The position numbers and the translations under genes were made by a program. Below, in pieces: positions 25-36,904 of a stretch of DNA of 38,672 bases. This DNA comes from Leptolyngbyaceae cyanobacterium M33_DOE_097. Lineage in GTDB: Bacteria; Cyanobacteriota; Cyanobacteriia; Leptolyngbyales; Leptolyngbyaceae. The DNA lies in the NCBI GenBank assembly GCA_015296075.1, contig DVDV01000195.1, positions 1 to 38,672 on the forward strand, given 5' to 3'. Under the pieces are notes generated by a model. That model searched no databases, was not told the DNA's origin, and worked only from the letters and a program-made list of their open reading frames with translations. Every line of letters begins with the position of its first letter. Within the stretch, counting starts at the first letter, position 1.

Positions 25-147
25 AATCACCTGGTCAGGTGAGAGGAGTGGATGAAGCCCTGTACCCCTTATCAGTCGTACTCTAGAGCATGTGTAGAGC
101 ATAAGCTGATCGGGGAGATGAATGGGGGCATTCACTCCCTTTTTTTT
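25..147 (+). ncRNA. Putative small RNA, tandem copy 1
   Basis: Seen: a -10-like TATACA (15-20) lies 4-5 nt upstream of the conserved block, which opens with a perfect inverted repeat (27-42, 7-bp arms, 2-nt loop). An A/G-rich single-stranded stretch follows (43-55), then a variable middle (63-80). The end is a textbook Rho-independent terminator: arms 113-117/135-139 and 119-124/129-134 with one bulged A, a GGGG loop and a T-run at 140-147. No open reading frame of note lies inside. The block recurs 144 bp downstream. I infer an independently transcribed RNA of about 120 nt. I do not recognise it as a named cyanobacterial sRNA (NsiR1, PsrR1 and Yfr2 were considered from memory only). A -35 box cannot be judged because the window begins here. 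Confidence 0.6.
113..147 (+). terminator. Rho-independent terminator of sRNA copy 1
   Basis: GC-rich stem of 11 bp with one bulge (113-124 with 129-139), GGGG loop and eight T residues directly after. The same hairpin, base for base, ends copy 2. Confidence 0.85.
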
Positions 148-168
148 GCGAAATTTACAATCCCAAAG

Positions 169-294
169 AATCACCTGGTCAGGTGAGAGGAGTGGATGAA
201 GCCCTGCATCCTGCTTCAGACGTATTCTAAAGCATGTGTAGAGCATAAGCTGATCGGGGAGATGAATGGGGGCATTCACTCCCTATTTTTTTTT
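169..294 (+). ncRNA. Putative small RNA, tandem copy 2
   Basis: Second copy of the unit at 25-147, offset by exactly 144 bp. It has its own -10-like TACAAT (156-161), the same 5' inverted repeat (171-186), the same A/G-rich stretch and the same terminator hairpin (257-283, T-run 284-294). Both ends are nearly identical to copy 1 while the middle (207-224) carries most of the differences, a pattern typical of duplicated sRNA genes whose ends are under selection. Its terminator T-run reaches the stop codon of the convergent yebC gene, so the two transcription units meet tail to tail. Function unknown. Confidence 0.6.
257..294 (+). terminator. Rho-independent terminator of sRNA copy 2
   Basis: Same 11-bp bulged stem as at 113-139, followed by a T-rich run (284-294) that overlaps the last codon of yebC on the other strand. 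Confidence 0.85.
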
Positions 295-1102
295 AGGCAA
301 CGCTAGCCGACATTAGTTCATCACTCATTTCAAAATTAGCAGTGACAGTCTGCACATCATCTAAGTCTTCGAGGGCGTCCATTAGCTTGAGCAGCGATCG
401 CGCCTGGTCGCTATCACTCACTTCTACCGTATTGTTGGGGATCCACCGAAGCTCCATTTGAGAAATTGGGTAACCGCGCTCTTTCAACGTGTTACTGAGG
501 GTTTCAAGGTTAGTTGGTTCTGTAAACGCTTCTGCAACAGGCCCCATTTCCGTTTCGTTTAATTCGTAAGTATCGGCACCACCCTCTAAAAAGGCTTCTA
601 GCAGCTCGTCCTCGTCAATTGTGGTCGATGCTTCGGTTCTGCGCTTGCGCCCGGTATCGGGGATCGTTAGCAGCACCTCAACAAACCCCTTTTGATCAAA
701 CATCCAGCCTACGCAACCCGTTTCACCCAGGTTGCCGCCGTTTTTGCTGAATGCCACGCGTAAGTCAGCCGCGGTACGGTTACGGTTGTCGGTGAGGGCT
801 TCGATCAACACAGCCACTCCACCCGGGCCATACCCCTCATAACGAATCGCTTCAAGACTATTTTCGTTGCCAAGCGTTCCTGCCCCTTTGGCGATCGCGC
901 GTTCTATATTCTCGTTGGGAATCCCAGCGGCTTTAGCCTTTTCGACTGCCGTTCTGAGTTGAAAGTTACTCTCTGGATCCGGCAAACCACTTCGAGCAGC
1001 CACAATAATCTCTCGCGAGATTTTAGTAAAAATTGCTCCTTTTTTGGCATCCACTCGCGCTTTTTGGCGCTTAATATTCGCCCATTTACTATGTCCAGCC
1101 AT
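293..1102 (-). CDS. yebC: YebC/PmpR family regulatory protein
   Basis: Full-length YebC-family protein (269 aa; family members are about 240-280). The N-terminus MAGHSKWANIKRQK is the family signature; the K/R-rich first domain (about 1-75) is followed by the two alpha/beta domains, with the conserved block RYEGYGPGGVAVL near residues 86-98 and TDNRNRTAADLR after it. Family members have been described as DNA-binding regulators, and more recently some have been linked to translation of stall-prone sequences; which applies here is not shown by the sequence. An acidic, lineage-specific insertion (around residues 150-170, RKRRTEASTTIDEDE) lies in the middle. The ATG is the natural start. The gene is transcribed toward the tandem small RNAs and diverges from the adhesin gene across a 235-bp gap. 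Confidence 0.93.
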   Translation of the reverse strand: MAGHSKWANIKRQKARVDAKKGAIFTKISREIIVAARSGLPDPESNFQLRTAVEKAKAAGIPNENIERAIAKGAGTLGNENSLEAIRYEGYGPGGVAVLIEALTDNRNRTAADLRVAFSKNGGNLGETGCVGWMFDQKGFVEVLLTIPDTGRKRRTEASTTIDEDELLEAFLEGGADTYELNETEMGPVAEAFTEPTNLETLSNTLKERGYPISQMELRWIPNNTVEVSDSDQARSLLKLMDALEDLDDVQTVTANFEMSDELMSASVA

Positions 1103-1337: not shown

Positions 1338-4300
1338 ATGAAATTTTCCCATTCTCGTTGGTTTGCATCAGAAGGTGCGTTAATCGTTACCGTTCTCTCG
1401 TTTACCAGCCCTGTGAGTGGGCAAATTGTGCCCGACCAGACCTTGCCAACCAATTCCCAGGTCAACGCCCCTGGTTGCACCAACTGCGTCATTGAGGGTG
1501 GCACGCTACGCGGCAATAACCTGTTCCATAGCTTTCAGCAGTTCTCGATTCCCACGGGGGGCAGCGCCTTCTTCAACAACCCGGCAGCGATCGAGAATAT
1601 TTTGACGCGCGTGACTGGTTCCTCGATCTCAAACATTGATGGGTTACTCAAAGCCAATGGAACCGCCAACTTTTTCTTGCTCAATCCTAACGGTGTGGTG
1701 TTTGGCCCCAATGCCCGTTTAGAACTGGGGGGTTCGTTCTTTGCCAGCACCGCCAATAGCTTTAAGTTCTCCGATGGCAGCGAATTTAGCGCGACCAATC
1801 CCCAAGCGCCCCCCCTGCTGAGCGTCAACATTACCCCTGGCTTGCAATACGGCAAACCCGTTGGCGATGTGCAAAATCAAGGCAATCTGCAAGTAAAAGC
1901 GGGGTCAAATTTGACCCTGTTTGGCAGCACCGTTCTCAACCAGGGTGGGCTGGTCGCTCCGGGTGGACGGGTGGAAGTGTTGGGCGATCGCGTGGCGTTG
2001 CTCGATACCGCTCGTGTGGATGTGTCGAGTCCATTTGGGGGCGGCACAGTCTTGATTGGGGGCGATTATCAAGGTAAAGGGGTTGTACCGAACGCGCAGC
2101 AAACGTTTGTAAGTCCAGGGGTGGCGATCGCGGCGGATGCAACCCAACAGGGCAAAGGCGGCACGATCATCGTCTGGGCCGACCAGACGACTCGGTTTTA
2201 TGGCAGTGCCTCAGCGAAAGGGAGTGGCATCGGCGGCGATGGTGGCTTAGTAGAAGTCAGCGGTAAGCAAAACCTCGCGTTTCAGGGACAGGTAGACACG
2301 TCTGCTGTGTTTGGCAAAACCGGGACGCTGCTACTCGACCCGACGAACATTACAATTACCAACGCGGCTCCCGCAGCTCCTCCTCCCGCCGCAGGCGATA
2401 GTTTCTGGTTAGCTGGAGAAGATGTAGGGGATCAAGTCATCTCACCCGCTGCAATTTCGACTTTACTGACATCCAACTTCTTGTACTTAGAAGCCGAGAA
2501 CGCAATTACGATCGCCTCTGATGTTGCTCTGAATAGCCCAAATAATTTCATCCTGCGTGCAGGCAATTCCATCACCAACACAAACAATGCCACCATTACG
2601 CAAACAGGTAGTGGCGGTATTTTCTTGCAAACAGCCGGAAGCCTCCTATCTGGAGGATCGTTTAATCCTGCTGGCGTGATTACGTTTACCGGGGGTGGGA
2701 TCACCAGTAACTCTGCAGGCGGTCAAGGGGGACTAATTTCGATCTCGACTGGCACTCTGACGCTACAAGGGGGCGCGAGGCTCTCGGTTGATAGTGGCGG
2801 TACTGGAAACCCTGGTTCGATTGAAGTATTTGCAGCCAATGCGGTGAATTTAATTGGGCCTGGCTCTGGCATCTTTGCCAATGTGCAAAATGCGAATACA
2901 ACACCGATCGCGATTACTGAAATCGGTGAAGCCGGACAAACGCTGGGTGATGCACAAAATGCAGCAGGGCAGACGATTACCACCATTTCAGGGAATGTTT
3001 CCAATACAAACGATGTAGACGTTTTTCAAATTACGTTATCGGGTAACCAGACGTTTTCGGCAACAACAGTTGGGGGAACAGCCTTTGATACTCAATTGTT
3101 CTTATTTGACAGTAGCGGCAGAGGTATCTATGCCGATGACCAAAGCGGCGGAGCCAATCAGGCGACCCTGCCCAGCAATAATCCGTTAACTCCCACTACA
3201 GCCGGAACCTACTACCTGGCAATTTCTGCCTGGGATAATGACCCTCAAAGTGTAGCAGGTCGAATCTTTGGAGCGGGTGATTTTTTAGTTGGGGCAACCG
3301 GAGAAGGTGCGAGTGCCCCACTCAATAGTTGGAATAATTCGGGCTTAGGGAGCAACGGAAATTACACCATTACCCTGACAGGGACAGGCGCAACAGCAAC
3401 GGCCCAGGCGGGCAATATTTTAGTTCAAACACCTTACCTGCAAGTCGCAAATGGCGCAAGAATTTCATCGAGCACTTTGGGAAGTGCGACAGGCGGGAAT
3501 GTCAGCATTCAGGCAGACCGAGTTGATCTGATCGGGGCTCAAAGTGGCATTTTGGCTGAAACGCAAGCCGCAGGCACCGCAGGCAACTTGACTTTCAACC
3601 CCTTTAACACACCGAATTTAGCTGTCAATTTTGCAAGTGGCGCAAGAATTTCTGCTGAAACATCGAACACTGGGCAGGGTGGCAATATTGCGATCGCGAC
3701 GCCTCAAGGTGGTTCTGTAACTCTCAGCGGCCAAGGAAACCTATCGGTGGATACAACGGGTGAAGGAAACGGTGGACTACTCAGCATCAGCACTGCCCAA
3801 CTGCGGGTTCAAGCGGGCACTCAAATTACAGCGAATACGCGAGGGGCTGGAGATGCGGGCATGATTGACATCACCGCTCAGAACGTCATTTTGACAGGGG
3901 CAAATACTCGCATCTCGGCTGACACGACCGATACGTTTTTGAATGGCAACCTCGCAGAAAATGGGGATGCGGGGCAATTGCTGGGTAATGCTCAAAGCTT
4001 CACGGGTCAAGTCGTCACGAGCATTTCAGGAGTTACTGATGGCACTAATGACGTTGATCTTTATCAAATCACCCTTGATGGGAGCCAACCTTTTTCGGCC
4101 AGCACCGTTGGCATTGTAGATACCCAACTTTTCTTGTTCAATTCGACAGGACAAGGAATCTACGCCGATGACCAGAGCGGTGCTAATAACCAAGCCGCTC
4201 TACCCGCCAACAACCTGGCACCCGGAAACTACTACCTGGCAGTGTCAGCCTGGAATAATGACCCTCAAAGTGCTGGAGGTAATATTTTTGCCCCCGGTGA

Positions 4301-7300
4301 TTTAGTTGTTGAACCTACAGGTCCGGGTGGCGCTTCTCCCCTAACTGGGTGGAACAACTCTGGTCTTGGTAGCAGTGGCAGCTACACAATCAACTTGACA
4401 GGCGTTGGTGATCCGCAGGGAAATACGGTCATCCCAGGCGGTAACGGTGGAACAATCAACTTGCGGACGGATACATTGGCGATCGCTGATGGCGCAAAAA
4501 TTTCATCTAACACAACGGGCAGTGGTCTCGGTGGTAGCGTCAATATTGAGGCCAATACCGTTAATCTTACGGGCAGCGACAGCCAAATTCTGGCTCAAAC
4601 CTCCTCGACAGGCGACGCAGGTTTTCTTACGTTACAGGCACAACGCGGTAGCACCAACTTAAACGTGACGCTTGGCAGTGGTACCGAAATTTCAGCCTCA
4701 ACTTCGGGTGCGGGGGCAGGAGGCGGTCTGCTCATCACAGCTCCAAACGAAGTCACCCTTCAAGGTCCAGGTTCCATTTCAGCCGATACAAGCTCATCAG
4801 GTATTGGTGGTTTTCTTTCCATTGATACCAGTATTTTGAATATTGCCAACGGTACTAAGATTTCAGCCGCCACTTCTGGTGCTGGACTGGGTGGGGACTT
4901 AGAAATCATTGCGCCAGAGGCTGTATCGATTAGTGGTCAGGCAATTCTCTCGGTTGAGACAACCAATGCTGGCGAGGGAGGTGATCTCCTCATCGCAACG
5001 GGTAACTTTCTTTTGCAACAAGGCTCTAGAATCTCGGCAGATACGCGTGGCAGTGGAGATGCAGGGTTTTTAACAATTGATGCAACTGGCTCTGCAGTCG
5101 TGAAAGGCAATTCTCAAATTAGTGGATCTGTTGGCAAAGGAGCAGCGGGAAATGGCAACTTAATTCAACTCACTGCCCAAAACTTAGAACTCAGTGATGG
5201 CGGACAGGTTCGAGCAGAGACAGAAGGATCTGGCAATGCTGGCACGATTGATGTGATTGTAGACAACGCAATCAGCATCATCGGAACCAACAGTGGCTTT
5301 TTTGCGACCACGCAAGACTATACGATTGACCCCAGCGGAGTGCCTGTGGCTGAGATAGGAGATGCCGGGCAATTGGCCGATGGAACAGCCCAAAACACAA
5401 CGAATTTAGGAGCGGGGCAATTTGTCACCCAAATTACGGGAAATCTCAGCGATGGCAATGATGTGGACGTTTATCAGATTGCCTTAACTGGAAATCAGGC
5501 TTTTTCAGCCATCACGAGCAGCAGCACAGGGCTTGATTCACAACTCTTTCTATTTAATGCCAATGGCACAGGAGTTTATGGAGATGACCAGAGCGGCGGC
5601 GGCGGTAACCAAGCGGCTCTCCCGGCTGGTAACCCGCTCACCCCAACGGCTGCTGGAACTTATTATCTGGCCATCTCTGGCTGGAATGTTGACCCTTCCA
5701 GTGCAGGTGGTGCCATCTTTGAACCGGGTGATTATTTAGTTGGGCCAAATGGGCCAGGAGGGGGCACTCAACCCTTAAGCCGCTGGGAAGGCCCGGTCAA
5801 CACTTCAGGTGGCAGCTATACCATTGACCTAACGGGTATTTTAGGTGCGCCTGCTCCCCAAAGAGGTGGTGAAGGCGGAGGTATTCAGATCCAAGCTAAA
5901 TCTGTGACTGTTAATCAGGGAAGCATCTCCGCAACTACTTCTGGGCAAGGGAATGCTGGGGATGTCACCTTGAACGTGAATGCCTTGACCCTAACTGGAA
6001 GCAATGACTCAGGTGCCCGTGTTTTAACCAGTTCAACTGGTTCTGGAAACGCAGGAGATATTACTGTTAAGGCTACCCAAGCAGTTACGCTGGACAACCT
6101 ATCCGGGCTGCGGGCGCAAGCAACCGGAACGGGTAATGCAGGCGACATTTCCATTACCACGCCTCTCCTGACATTGGACAACTCTGATATCACCGTTAGC
6201 AGTGTCGGGGTGCGCGCAGCCGGGAAACTTGATATTCAAGCAGGGCAGGTTGAGTTAAACAACCAATCGAAGCTCACCGCTACAACAGTCGGTGGTATTG
6301 GTCAGGGCATTAATTTGACGGGTTTAAACTCGCTTAATGTCAACAATAGCCTCATTTCAGCTTCAACGGTGAACGGTCAAGCAGGTGGGGTCGTGGTTGA
6401 AGCGACAGGAGGTTCGGTAACATTGAGTGGTTTACTCAGTGATGGTAGCCCTGGGGGAATTGCGATCGCGGCAACGGGGTCGGGTGATGCTGGCGAACTC
6501 ACCATTACCACCAGTCAACTCACCTTTGAAGATGGTGCGGGTGTGTCAGCAAACAACCAATCCAGCCTGGTTAGTAGTCAAATTAACCTCAACAGCTTGG
6601 ATACCTTCATTATTCGCAACACCCGCCTGACTGCCTCTACGCAAGATGGCGAAGCCGGAAACTTTCAAGTTAATGCCAAAAATTCAGTCTTTATCTCAGG
6701 CACTGCACCGAATGGTCAACCTGCCGGTATTTTTGTCGAAGCAACGGGCGCTGGCGAAGCGGGTTCACTTGCAATCAACACAAGCCAACTCACAGTGCAA
6801 CAAGGGGGGCAAGTTTCAGTCAGCAATACAGGCACAGGCATTGGTGGCGACCTAACCATAGATGCCAATGCGATTACGCTTAACAACGGTAAACTCACCG
6901 CTCAAACAATATCTGGTACGGGAGGCGACATCACACTCGGCTCAGCACAAAAGCCCCTGCAAACCCTGCAACTGTCAAATGGTAGTCAGGTTTCCGCTTC
7001 AACCGCCACTGGCACCCAGGGTGGTAGCGTTTCCGTGTTTGCGGCAAACTTTGTGTCGTTGAGTGGTAACAGCGCGATCGCGGCTGCAGCGACAGCAGGC
7101 GGTAATGCCGGAGATCTATTTATCCAAGCTCCTCAACTCAACTTAAACAACTCCAGGGCTTCGGTTAGCAGTACTGGTAATGGGCAAGCAGGTGAAATTG
7201 ATGTGAAGGCCCAAAGTATCAACCTAGAAAATGGTAGTCGCTTAGCAGCAACTACCGAAAATGGCTTGGGTGGCAACATTACCTTCGATGGTTTAGTGAA

Positions 7301-8321
7301 TCTACAGTTAGATAATGGAACAATCACCGCTTCAACTGAAAGTGGTAAGGCAGGAAATGTCACTATTGCTGCGGCCAATGAAGTTCGGTTAGAAAACGGG
7401 TCAGCAATTTCAGTTGCGGCGACTGAGGGCGGCACTGCTGGCACCCTCGGTATTATCACCCAACGATTCCGCGTTGAAGATTCACAAGTCAGCGTCAGTA
7501 GCCGCACCGGAATCGCGGGGGACTTAAACGTCGAAGCCGGGACGGTTTATCTCTATCAAGGACAATTAACAGCCCTCAACGGTCAAGGCAGTGGCGGCAA
7601 CATTAATCTCGATGTCGATGGGTTAGCTATCCAATTGAGAGCCGAAAGCTTGATTTCAGCCGAAGCGTTTGGCACTGCGAATGGTAGCAATATCAGTGTT
7701 CTAGTGCCAAACGGTTATCTCATTGCCTTTCCCTTTGAAAACAGCGATATTACGGCGGATGCTCAGGCAGGCAGTGGGGGCACGGTGCGAGTTGATGCAT
7801 TAGCGTTATTTGGCATCGAGTTTCGTCCCGCCCGCACACCCCTAAGCGACATCACCGCAAACTCTCAAACAGGGGCAGACGGCTCAGTTGAGGTGAACAC
7901 ATTGGGCATTGACCCGACCCGTGGCTTAGTCCCTCTCGCTACCGACCTATCAGACCCAACAAACCAGGTATCACAGGCATGTTCGGCCCAGCGGCAGACT
8001 GATAATCGCTTTGTTGTGACGGGTCGGGGAGGTCTGCCAGCCAGCCCTGAAGATGGTTTGACTGGGTTACAACCCCAAGTTGAGCTTTTAGCTCCTCTGC
8101 AAGGTGGCACCAACCAGACAGCTAGCCCTCAAAGTAATCAAAAGCCCCAGGCTGAGACCCAAATTGTCGAAGCTCAGGGCTGGGTACGCAACGCTGACGG
8201 TTCGATCGCCCTAATTGCACAATCTGCTAACACCTCACAGGGGCAGTGGCAACCAAACGCGGAATGCCAAATTCCAATCGGTGATCAGGGTCTAGATCAA
8301 CAAAACCACGCTGGACGTTAA
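1338..8321 (+). CDS. Two-partner-secretion exoprotein, filamentous haemagglutinin/S-layer type
   Basis: Very large exported protein (2327 aa). Seen: a signal peptide (about 1-28, ending SPVSG before QIVPD), then the TPS/haemagglutinin N-terminal domain (about 30-260) with the hallmark block [16 protein letters not shown] and a CxxC at 47-50. The body is a long Gly/Ser/Thr/Asn-rich beta-helix repeat (motifs such as GNAGDI and ISATT). Three pre-peptidase-C/DVUA0089-like modules of about 150 residues interrupt it near 530-685, 875-1025 and 1340-1500, each with NDVDVYQI, a DTQLFLFN-like strand, ADDQSG and YYLAIS. The C-terminal tail ([10 protein letters not shown], then AQGWV) is the cyanobacterial type. 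TpsA proteins are moved across the outer membrane by a TpsB (Omp85-like) partner, and none is present here. Likely role: surface adhesion or S-layer/sheath material (inference). A stable hairpin follows at 8429-8458. Confidence 0.92.
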
Positions 8322-35080: not shown

Positions 35081-36904
35081 TTAGAAACTAAACTGCGTGC
35101 GGATGTTGCCGACAAATACAGTTGGGTTACTGTCAAAGTTGTTGGCATTGAAAATAGTGTAGAAAGCAGGGGTGATCGAGATGTTTCTAGTCAATGGATA
35201 GTGATAAGAAACTTCTAAATCGTATTGAGTACCGCCATCGCCAGCACCAGATTGTAAGAATCGACTGCCACTGGTGTAGTCATGGGGCATCACGAACGAG
35301 ATCACACCTAAAGCGCCTTTCTTACCCAAATCAGGGAAGCCCAAGCCCACCTGGAAGCTCTGTACTCTGACGTTTCCACCTTCAACATTGGGGTTGATTG
35401 GGTCGATGCCAGTGCGACCATAGCTATAACGCCCAAAAATACCAAAGCCATTTGTAATCAACCAATCAAAGTTAATTCCAAACATATCAGCGTAGGCATC
35501 TTCAACCCTACCACCAAAACCATCATCCGCATAACCGTAGGGCAACGGTTCGCCGACAGCACCACCGATAAAGCCGTTGTAAGCTTTGATATGCGATCGA
35601 ATATAAGTCACACGCACATTAAACTTAGGGCTTGGAGAATAAGTTAATTCACTGGTGATGCTATTTGTTGCATTAAACAAACCATCTGAGGGATCGCTGG
35701 AAGTATTGAATACAGATGGGTTCAAAAACTCTGTATTTTCTGCTAGGTAGGCAACTGCCAATCTAAACTGGGGGCTAATTTTCCAGATGGCAACTGCACC
35801 AGAACCACGGTCAACTGCATTCGACAATGTGCTGCCGTTCGAGTTGTAACTTGTTGCACCCGTTAAGAAGAAGGTGAAACGGTTGGCATCAAAATAACGG
35901 TAGACGTTAATCCGCGGACCGACAACAAACTGCAGGCTATCGCCAACGGGGAAGGTGTACGACAATTCGCGGAGAACAACATCATTCGGTGTAGGGGTAC
36001 CTGATTGGTCGAGGAAGGGGGTACCCCAAGAATTGAAGAAACCGGATGAAACGAGCTGGTTGGCTGGAGAGTTACCATTTCCCACGACCAACTGGGTTGT
36101 CAGAGTATCCTTTCCAGTAAAGGACGTATTGAGGTTTAAGAATGCGTAGTAACTCAGCGTAATTTGGGGTTGGTCTCGCTGAACTCGGCGTGGTTGATTT
36201 GTCACCGGATCTCGACCCGGAGGTGCAAACGCGCTCCCCCCGCCATTCACAAAGGGATTACGCTCAGCGGTAACATCATCAGTTGGAAAAGCACCCGTCA
36301 TATTAAACCAAATCTGACCGCTCAGTTTGGTTGTCGTTGAAAACTGCTGCTTTTCAAGCGTGGTTGTTCTGGCCTCAAGTGCGTCTATACGGCCTCTGAG
36401 GGTGGCTAGCTCAGCCGCAAACTCTTCTTGCAGCTTTTTGAGCGCATCTAAGTCTTCTTGCTTTACAAAGTCAGCGGTATTGGCTGCTATGAGTTCGCTA
36501 ATGCGGTCTAAGCAAGCATTGACACCTGCCGCAAACTCGTAGCGGGTCAATGCCTGATTGCCTCGAAACGTACGATCCGGGTAACCCACAATACAGCCAT
36601 ACCGCTCAACTAATGACTGCAAAGCCTGAAATGCCCAATCAGTAGGTCTTACATCTGTTAGCTGAGAAACAGATGTCACCTGATCCATTCCAGAACTTGC
36701 GGACTGGTCACTGGTCAACTCTGCAATGTTGCTCACTTGCTCCATTGCAGGATCAAGCTCGGTTGCAAATTGTTCAACTTCCTCAATCTGGTTGCTGAGA
36801 GAACCATCTATCTCTTCAGCTTCAACAGGCCGCACATCCAACGGGAGGGCAGCGATCGCCGCCAAAACTCCCAGGCCAATTCCCCATACACCTAGCTTCA
36901 GCAT
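35081..36904 (-). CDS. SLH-domain outer-membrane porin (OprB / iron-uptake porin type, Som-like)
   Basis: 607 aa. Seen: a signal peptide (about 1-29), a Glu/Ser-rich acidic linker, an SLH domain (about 78-140; VTSVSQLTDVRPTDWAFQALQSLVERYGCIVGYPDRTFRGNQALTRYEFAAGVNACL) that binds peptidoglycan-linked polymers, a coiled coil (about 145-190), then an OprB-type beta-barrel (about 195-607) ending in the outer-membrane sorting Phe (RTQFSF). This is the layout of cyanobacterial SomA/SomB and 'iron uptake porin' proteins, which carry small nutrients across the outer membrane. The mRNA leader just upstream of the ATG has GUGUGAGG, perfectly complementary to the core of the Yfr1 small RNA, and the GAGG is only 2 nt from the AUG. 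Confidence 0.93.
   Translation of the reverse strand: MLKLGVWGIGLGVLAAIAALPLDVRPVEAEEIDGSLSNQIEEVEQFATELDPAMEQVSNIAELTSDQSASSGMDQVTSVSQLTDVRPTDWAFQALQSLVERYGCIVGYPDRTFRGNQALTRYEFAAGVNACLDRISELIAANTADFVKQEDLDALKKLQEEFAAELATLRGRIDALEARTTTLEKQQFSTTTKLSGQIWFNMTGAFPTDDVTAERNPFVNGGGSAFAPPGRDPVTNQPRRVQRDQPQITLSYYAFLNLNTSFTGKDTLTTQLVVGNGNSPANQLVSSGFFNSWGTPFLDQSGTPTPNDVVLRELSYTFPVGDSLQFVVGPRINVYRYFDANRFTFFLTGATSYNSNGSTLSNAVDRGSGAVAIWKISPQFRLAVAYLAENTEFLNPSVFNTSSDPSDGLFNATNSITSELTYSPSPKFNVRVTYIRSHIKAYNGFIGGAVGEPLPYGYADDGFGGRVEDAYADMFGINFDWLITNGFGIFGRYSYGRTGIDPINPNVEGGNVRVQSFQVGLGFPDLGKKGALGVISFVMPHDYTSGSRFLQSGAGDGGTQYDLEVSYHYPLTRNISITPAFYTIFNANNFDSNPTVFVGNIRTQFSF

Follow-up and report, generated by a model that had tools for sequence, protein, structure and literature searches.

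A tandem array of putative small RNA genes in a Leptolyngbya-type cyanobacterium has in each unit a probable promoter box that also precedes envelope and efflux genes in other cyanobacteria

A contig of Leptolyngbyaceae cyanobacterium M33_DOE_097 (contig C388 of the source genome G000; 38,672 nucleotides, analysed in its entirety and referred to as the window) begins with a repeated unit ahead of a convergent yebC gene, which raises the question of what the repeat encodes and which part of it is transcribed. The first-pass annotation had described two head-to-tail RNA genes with a fixed period of 144 bp and had suspected additional copies upstream of position 1. The self-comparison of the window revealed direct copies at 9-147 and 153-291 (139 nt each, 89% identity, offset 144 bp) including a 22-mer present at 28-49 and 172-193 (0.00 expected), in agreement with the head-to-tail arrangement. 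The suspected upstream copies were also found: C396, another contig of the source genome, ends in a third copy of the unit and the beginning of one more, and its terminal 61 bases, read toward the window, exactly match the initial 61 bases of the window. Given this exact overlap the array comprises at least three copies; three is the probable number, unless collapsed repeats hide further ones. A constant period is not seen, since according to coordinate arithmetic the 144 bp occur once and 149 bp separate the copy on C396 from copy 1.

Based on the sequence analysis the repeat is a real tandem array of predicted small RNA genes, in which the RNA appears to be about half as long as originally proposed and the promoter box reaches well beyond it. 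Each unit very probably consists of a promoter and a small RNA gene of approximately 57 nt, with the following features (window coordinates):

27..42, no strand assigned: palindrome of the copy 1 box, TCACCTGGTCAGGTGA, about -65 to -50 with G92 taken as +1
50..57, plus strand: half-site of the copy 1 box, GGATGAAG, about -42 to -35
79..84, plus strand: -10 element of copy 1, TACTCT, 21 bp past the box
92..147, plus strand: predicted small RNA of copy 1, 56 nt, conserved 5' end GUGUAGAGCAUA, putative start site
112..140, plus strand: terminator hairpin of copy 1, T-run at 140-147
171..186, no strand assigned: palindrome of the copy 2 box, match from box to -10 element at 171-228
194..201, plus strand: half-site of the copy 2 box, GGATGAAG
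223..228, plus strand: -10 element of copy 2, TATTCT, 21 bp past the box
236..294, plus strand: predicted small RNA of copy 2, up to 59 nt, hairpin at 256-284, T-run at 286-294
293..1102, minus strand: yebC, which converges on the array and whose stop codon touches the T-run of copy 2 at its end

Both units are closed by terminator-like sites on the plus strand, as had been annotated; positions 1-1500 hold eight such sites on the two strands against 1.5 expected. On the minus strand the palindromes followed by T-rich stretches (42-27, TTTTTTTGTA; 186-171, TTCTTTGGGA) score as terminator-like as well and might end yebC transcripts entering the array. A -10 element of its own is likewise present in each unit, but it is located inside the unit and not ahead of positions 25 and 169, where the RNAs had been thought to begin. 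Since the -10 elements lie at 79-84 and 223-228, the RNAs presumably start near 92 and 236, whereas positions 25 and 169 would mark the beginning of a promoter box. The predicted length is thus about 56 to 59 nt instead of the 100 to 130 nt proposed before. A scan for consensus sigma-70 promoters detected none in 1-1500 (1.7 expected).

The conserved 5' end of the unit, 27-57 in copy 1 and 171-201 in copy 2, is composed of the palindrome TCACCY-N4-RGGTGA, seven further bases and the half-site GGATGAAG, and the stretch 27-84 fits the complete arrangement of box, spacer and TANNNT with one mismatch. A search of genome_contigs, with one genome per species (84,980 species), for TCAYCYNNNNRGRTGA-N7-GGATGARG yielded 90 stretches, 69 of them in records labelled as cyanobacteria, including Nostoc, Scytonema, Fischerella, Leptolyngbya and Oculatella, and 21 in other bacteria. 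Only a few of the 69 represent the RNA of the window. After identical 75-base matches had been entered once and one non-cyanobacterial row had been dropped, 58 of 71 cyanobacterial matches, which contain close relatives and are not independent, had a TANNNT element starting 20 or 21 bp past the box, compared with 2 of 20 others. The cyanobacterial distances were 21 bp in 46 and 20 bp in 12 cases, while every other distance between 5 and 39 bp accounted for 0 to 10. A same-strand frame of at least 60 codons, which does not equate to a gene, started within 600 bp downstream in 53 of 62 cyanobacterial matches (L057-L136). The complete arrangement of box, spacer and TANNNT, at three mismatches or fewer, was detected 29 times in ten of ten genomes, eight of these matches being copies of the window's RNA gene; the reversed control gave none in all ten.

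The conserved 5' end of the unit is therefore most likely promoter DNA rather than RNA. This bears on the originally annotated unit, a single RNA of 123 to 126 nt from about 25 or 169 in which a 5' hairpin, the middle and the terminator are all transcribed. The 5' palindrome can indeed fold as RNA, and the fold of copy 1 (25-147) beats 200 of 200 shuffles with z -3.10, the value for copy 2 being z -1.84. An equally good fold is obtained, however, for the minus strand (z -3.50 and -3.84), a better -10 element is found within the unit, its middle is an unconserved spacer (0.18 bits), and -10-like elements of other cyanobacterial genes follow the 5' block at a constant distance. The long RNA thus appears improbable, and the reading of the block as a 5' RNA hairpin was dropped because the pattern search found the same palindromic block before other genes across the cyanobacteria. 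This corrects a misreading that is easily repeated, as a palindromic operator that opens a gene resembles a 5' RNA hairpin. With G92 as +1 the palindrome and the half-site would occupy the location of a class II activator site.

The regulators of known cyanobacterial promoter sites, namely RpaB (HLR1), Rre1 (GTNCGGK) and RppA (AAMAWCTCYYWCCCC), were considered as candidates for binding the box (PMC13421787). All of these are, like the box, DNA sites in cyanobacterial promoters; none of the motifs, compared by eye, reads TCACCC-N4-GGGTGA-N7-GGATGAAG, and the three regulators were rejected. Furthermore, a second palindrome-like stretch occurs slightly upstream of the box in a copy from the same genus (L005, TCATGCGATCGGGTGA) and in the copy on C396 (L003, TCATGCGAGTGGGTGA). 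Positions 6-19 of the window (GTGATTTGCTATAC) form an NtcA-like GTN10AC site that lies past the third copy and ahead of copy 1 and has no counterpart before copy 2.

In the family members that were read, the 5' block and the 3' block are conserved and the middle is variable. The annotated pattern of conserved ends and differing middle therefore holds, except that the 5' end corresponds to the promoter box and the middle to an unconserved spacer. A TANNNT element 20 to 21 bp past the box was found in 24 of 26 family copies, including two of the source genome (G000a and G000c), the exceptions being TTCATT in G032 and a 31-bp spacer in G021; in G008b a long gap precedes the RNA block. Box scores amount to 16-20 of 20 in 20 copies and to 11-14 in six. 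Across 19 loci the mean information is 0.56 bits in the box region (ungapped), 0.18 in the spacer, 0.88 in the -10 element and 0.58 in the gap behind it, and it reaches 1.71 bits at the 5' end of the RNA (12 positions), a value raised by the anchoring of the loci on TAGAG. The G three bases ahead of this anchor is invariant in 19 of 19 loci, lies 7 to 8 nt past the -10 element in most of them and is the likely transcription start.

In the predicted RNA a near-invariant 5' end, GNNURGAGYAY, is joined by a short linker to a terminator hairpin whose loop is G-rich. The folds predicted for the two RNAs of the window (56 nt, -19.0 kcal/mol; 59 nt, -19.2 kcal/mol; z about -2.5) leave the conserved 5' end mostly unpaired. 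The apical stem of the hairpin is paired in 90.5% of cells compared with 85.6% in shuffles (3 of 500 as high), and nine cells are changed on both sides, a number reached by 4 of 500 shuffles. Neither the two pairs changed on both sides (119 of 500 shuffles) nor the six further pair types (170 of 500) are significant in this stem. The outer terminator stems vary between sub-groups and yet pair in the predicted folds, for which several 3' ends were shortened and which were repeated with ends set by hand; in the covariance model of the whole unit (R1) these outer pairs are out of register in some rows.

By DNA similarity the unit was detected in 9 of 58 genomes, the source included, where the matches in G036 and G044 are short and were not counted as members. 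Model R1 identified 37 of 388 genomes of the class at E <= 0.01, again including the source, and 25 of these belong to the window's family. A model of the RNA only (R2) passes E 0.01 in 128 of the 388 genomes, mostly with less than 27 bits to the terminator part, and membership was thus set at 37 bits or more. This level is reached by 28 of 42 genomes of the family, while no other of the 388 genomes exceeds 27 bits. Nine of the 28 are absent from the model. Four of them have box scores of 20, 20, 18 and 13 (of 20), and the other five score 12 (G010), 13 (G015), 11 (G031), 14 (G030) and 12 (G027). Among 5,000 random stretches, whose source loci also hold real boxes, 5.7% reach a score of 12 and 17.5% a score of 11, and the evidence for a box from each of these five genomes is weak. 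In G005 and G165, at about 26 bits with R2, no box was found (score 9 of 20). Besides the array in the window, a weak second copy (23.6 bits) adjoins the first in G008, and G009 has two strong matches on separate contigs. The RNA gene has probably been duplicated more than once.

The genomic context was compared among 28 related loci. A yebC homologue is located downstream and convergent in 16 of them, and some loci end at contig ends. Since yebC runs on the minus strand, the unit is not its leader, and a riboswitch or leader of the next gene, which the first-pass annotation had named as the finding that would speak against its proposal, was rejected. On the upstream side of the array, C396 contains an 82-residue stretch without a Pfam match, for which one further locus, from the same genus, contains a homologue. 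Divergent from yebC, a plus-strand open frame of 2327 codons (1338-8321) reads like a large secreted repeat protein.

The neighbourhood of yebC could also indicate a regulated promoter with an immediate terminator and no trans-acting RNA, either a decoy made up of activator sites or an insulator that keeps transcription from entering yebC. The terminator abuts yebC in the window, the convergent order recurs in the 16 loci mentioned above, and surplus boxes could titrate the regulator. However, yebC is not found beside the RNA in the other 12 of the 28 loci, some loci being truncated at contig ends. Conservation in the first dozen RNA bases moreover greatly exceeds that in the spacer, and neither a decoy nor an insulator needs a conserved 5' end. 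A role of this kind therefore seems unlikely.

The possibility of a tiny coding gene arises from an 11-codon frame (ATGAAGCCC...TAG/TAA) behind GGAGTGG, with ATG and stop codon at matching places in three copies of the source genome. Since a copy from the same genus has ACG for ATG, frames and lengths differ in the relatives as judged by eye, and the frame lies upstream of the presumed transcription start, the mini-ORF was rejected as not conserved and is scarcely conceivable.

A small RNA gene might furthermore be a homologue of a known cyanobacterial RNA such as PsrR1/SyR1, NsiR1, Yfr1 or NsrR1. According to an Rfam search, the check suggested with the initial annotation, positions 1-320 are without a match up to E = 1 and the whole window has a single match, a tRNA elsewhere; none was obtained for 16 related loci (eight up to E = 1, eight at the gathering threshold). 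In size and tandem layout the array resembles NsiR1, whose promoter contains the DIF motif TCCGGA and whose neighbour is hetF, and the sequence of the window likewise presents tandem direct repeats in which each small RNA gene has its own promoter. The NtcA-like site at 6-19 would also speak for such a homologue. The DIF motif is absent from both strands of 1-320, and the window RNA, which belongs to a Leptolyngbya-type family, differs in promoter element, neighbour (yebC instead of hetF) and sequence from NsiR1, an RNA of heterocystous cyanobacteria (Ionescu et al. 2010, as cited in PMC4734099). Yfr1 is of similar size, but its core sequence ACTCCTCACAC (5'-ACUCCUCACAC-3' in PMC4734099) is absent from both strands of 1-320. 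PsrR1/SyR1 of Synechocystis is described in PMC6202907 and PMC2662882 as a free-standing gene with an intrinsic terminator that is conserved in many cyanobacteria. The window RNA shares this organisation, whereas SyR1 has 131 nt and a different sequence. The SyR1 sequence, located through the primers printed in PMC2662882, is unlike the window RNA by eye and was not matched by model R1 up to E = 0.1 (L051-L053), and PsrR1 was rejected. On the comparisons with Rfam, the SyR1 sequence and the NsiR1 and Yfr1 motifs, homology to one of the known RNAs is highly improbable. Neither the box nor the RNA is named in the open-licence literature searched, which does not by itself demonstrate their absence from print. 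Within these searches the RNA family and the box appear to be undescribed.

Many boxes in other cyanobacteria precede protein genes, among them genes for TolC/OEP proteins and HlyD-type adaptors as well as for an M23 peptidase and a peptidoglycan-binding protein. Of the 20 matches of box, spacer and TANNNT that are not small RNA copies, 19 were read (L171 was left out). A set of 19 proteins encoded downstream of boxes was picked by eye and subjected to a Pfam scan. The outer membrane efflux protein domain PF02321 was detected in 7 of the 19 (Tildeniella, Stenomitos, Leptolyngbya FACHB-36, Scytolyngbya, G180, G006 and G026), HlyD-type adaptors in two, and PG_binding_1, Peptidase_M23 and ABC_membrane in one each. 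In this by-eye selection 12 of 19 proteins thus have envelope or export domains compared with 7 that do not: Mo-nitro_C, TPR and Cupin were found once each and four proteins are without a Pfam match, one of them a recurrent exported-looking protein with YLYGQS-like text. Some of the matches with three mismatches, for example before dehydrogenase-like or DUF-like proteins, may be due to chance. In the source genome and in G001 of the same genus the strict box marks copies of the small RNA only, and the shared regulon therefore rests on the other genomes. That the RNA and these protein genes share an envelope/efflux regulon is fairly probable, and, given the distribution of the box, the RNA may well form the non-coding arm of a hitherto undescribed regulon of the cell envelope.

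Taken as a whole, the array is probably best explained by an activator-dependent, trans-acting small RNA of a cyanobacterial envelope/efflux regulon. The annotation of tandem small RNA genes with their own promoters and terminators is accordingly retained in view of their anatomy and their conservation in relatives, but its division of the unit is not. A candidate transcription factor would bind the box, presumably in response to envelope stress, and activate the RNA together with genes for outer-membrane efflux, the cell wall and exported proteins. The polymerase would then produce an RNA of about 57 nt, composed of the mostly unpaired, near-invariant 5' end and the intrinsic terminator. This 5' end would base-pair with mRNAs in trans and thereby provide a repressing arm for the regulon as in RybB and MicA, and the tandem copies would increase the dose of the RNA. 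The sequence features of a trans-acting small RNA, namely an own promoter, an intrinsic terminator and a conserved region that is mostly unpaired in the predicted folds, are present, and an action in trans through the 5' end is slightly favoured.

Porins would be the obvious guess for its targets. In eight genomes 117 OprB matches were found and 30 with their locus were examined, calculating the duplex energy of the first 25 nt of the RNA against positions -80 to +40 relative to composition shuffles and without an accessibility term. The start codons were assigned by rule of thumb, and L182, which looks wrong, was kept. These 30 leaders show no excess pairing with the RNA 5' end (mean z 0.00), and porins are not supported as targets. 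The exact complement of the 5' end, TRTGCTCTACAC, has 18 matches in the eight genomes compared with one for the reversed control; ten are the small RNA genes themselves and none of the eight others is located at a ribosome-binding site. Most of the 30 porin leaders (L176-L205) carry a ribosome-binding region similar to GTGTGAGGA, which is complementary to the core of Yfr1. Yfr1 is linked to the envelope through porin leaders. The window itself encodes an OprB-type porin on the minus strand (35084-36457).

A parallel case was observed in Oculatella and relatives (L044, L046 and L048, two of which are repeated as L060 and L062), where a similar box precedes a different short RNA of about GAUAAGUGACGUUCAU, with the core AAGTGACGTTCAT, followed by a terminator with a G-loop. 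In L048 this RNA is present in two tandem copies at 1381 and 1573, 192 bp apart. Many cyanobacteria might possess an undescribed envelope/efflux regulon, marked by TCACCC-N4-GGGTGA-N7-GGATGAAG-N20/21-TANNNT, that includes TolC and drives often-tandem small RNAs as its repressing arm. The Oculatella-type RNA under the same box would then mean that the RNA arm persists although the sequence with which it pairs differs; we put forward this extension tentatively, at a little short of an even chance.

In enterobacteria, RybB and MicA are envelope-stress small RNAs that are transcribed from sigma-E promoters and repress porins. By analogy, the window RNA would resemble them as a short RNA with a pairing region at the 5' end, an intrinsic terminator and a promoter shared with an envelope regulon. 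In contrast to their use of sigma-E and their repression of porins, the site in the window looks like an activator box and the 30 porin leaders are without excess pairing. In proteobacteria the control of envelope stress is well mapped, whereas the cyanobacterial counterpart is, to our knowledge, poorly charted. The recurrence of one fixed box ahead of genes for TolC, for efflux adaptors and for the cell wall across several genera provides a bait for the regulator, and a small RNA with a fixed 5' end under this box offers a test of whether cyanobacteria independently reached the logic of sigma-E and RybB.
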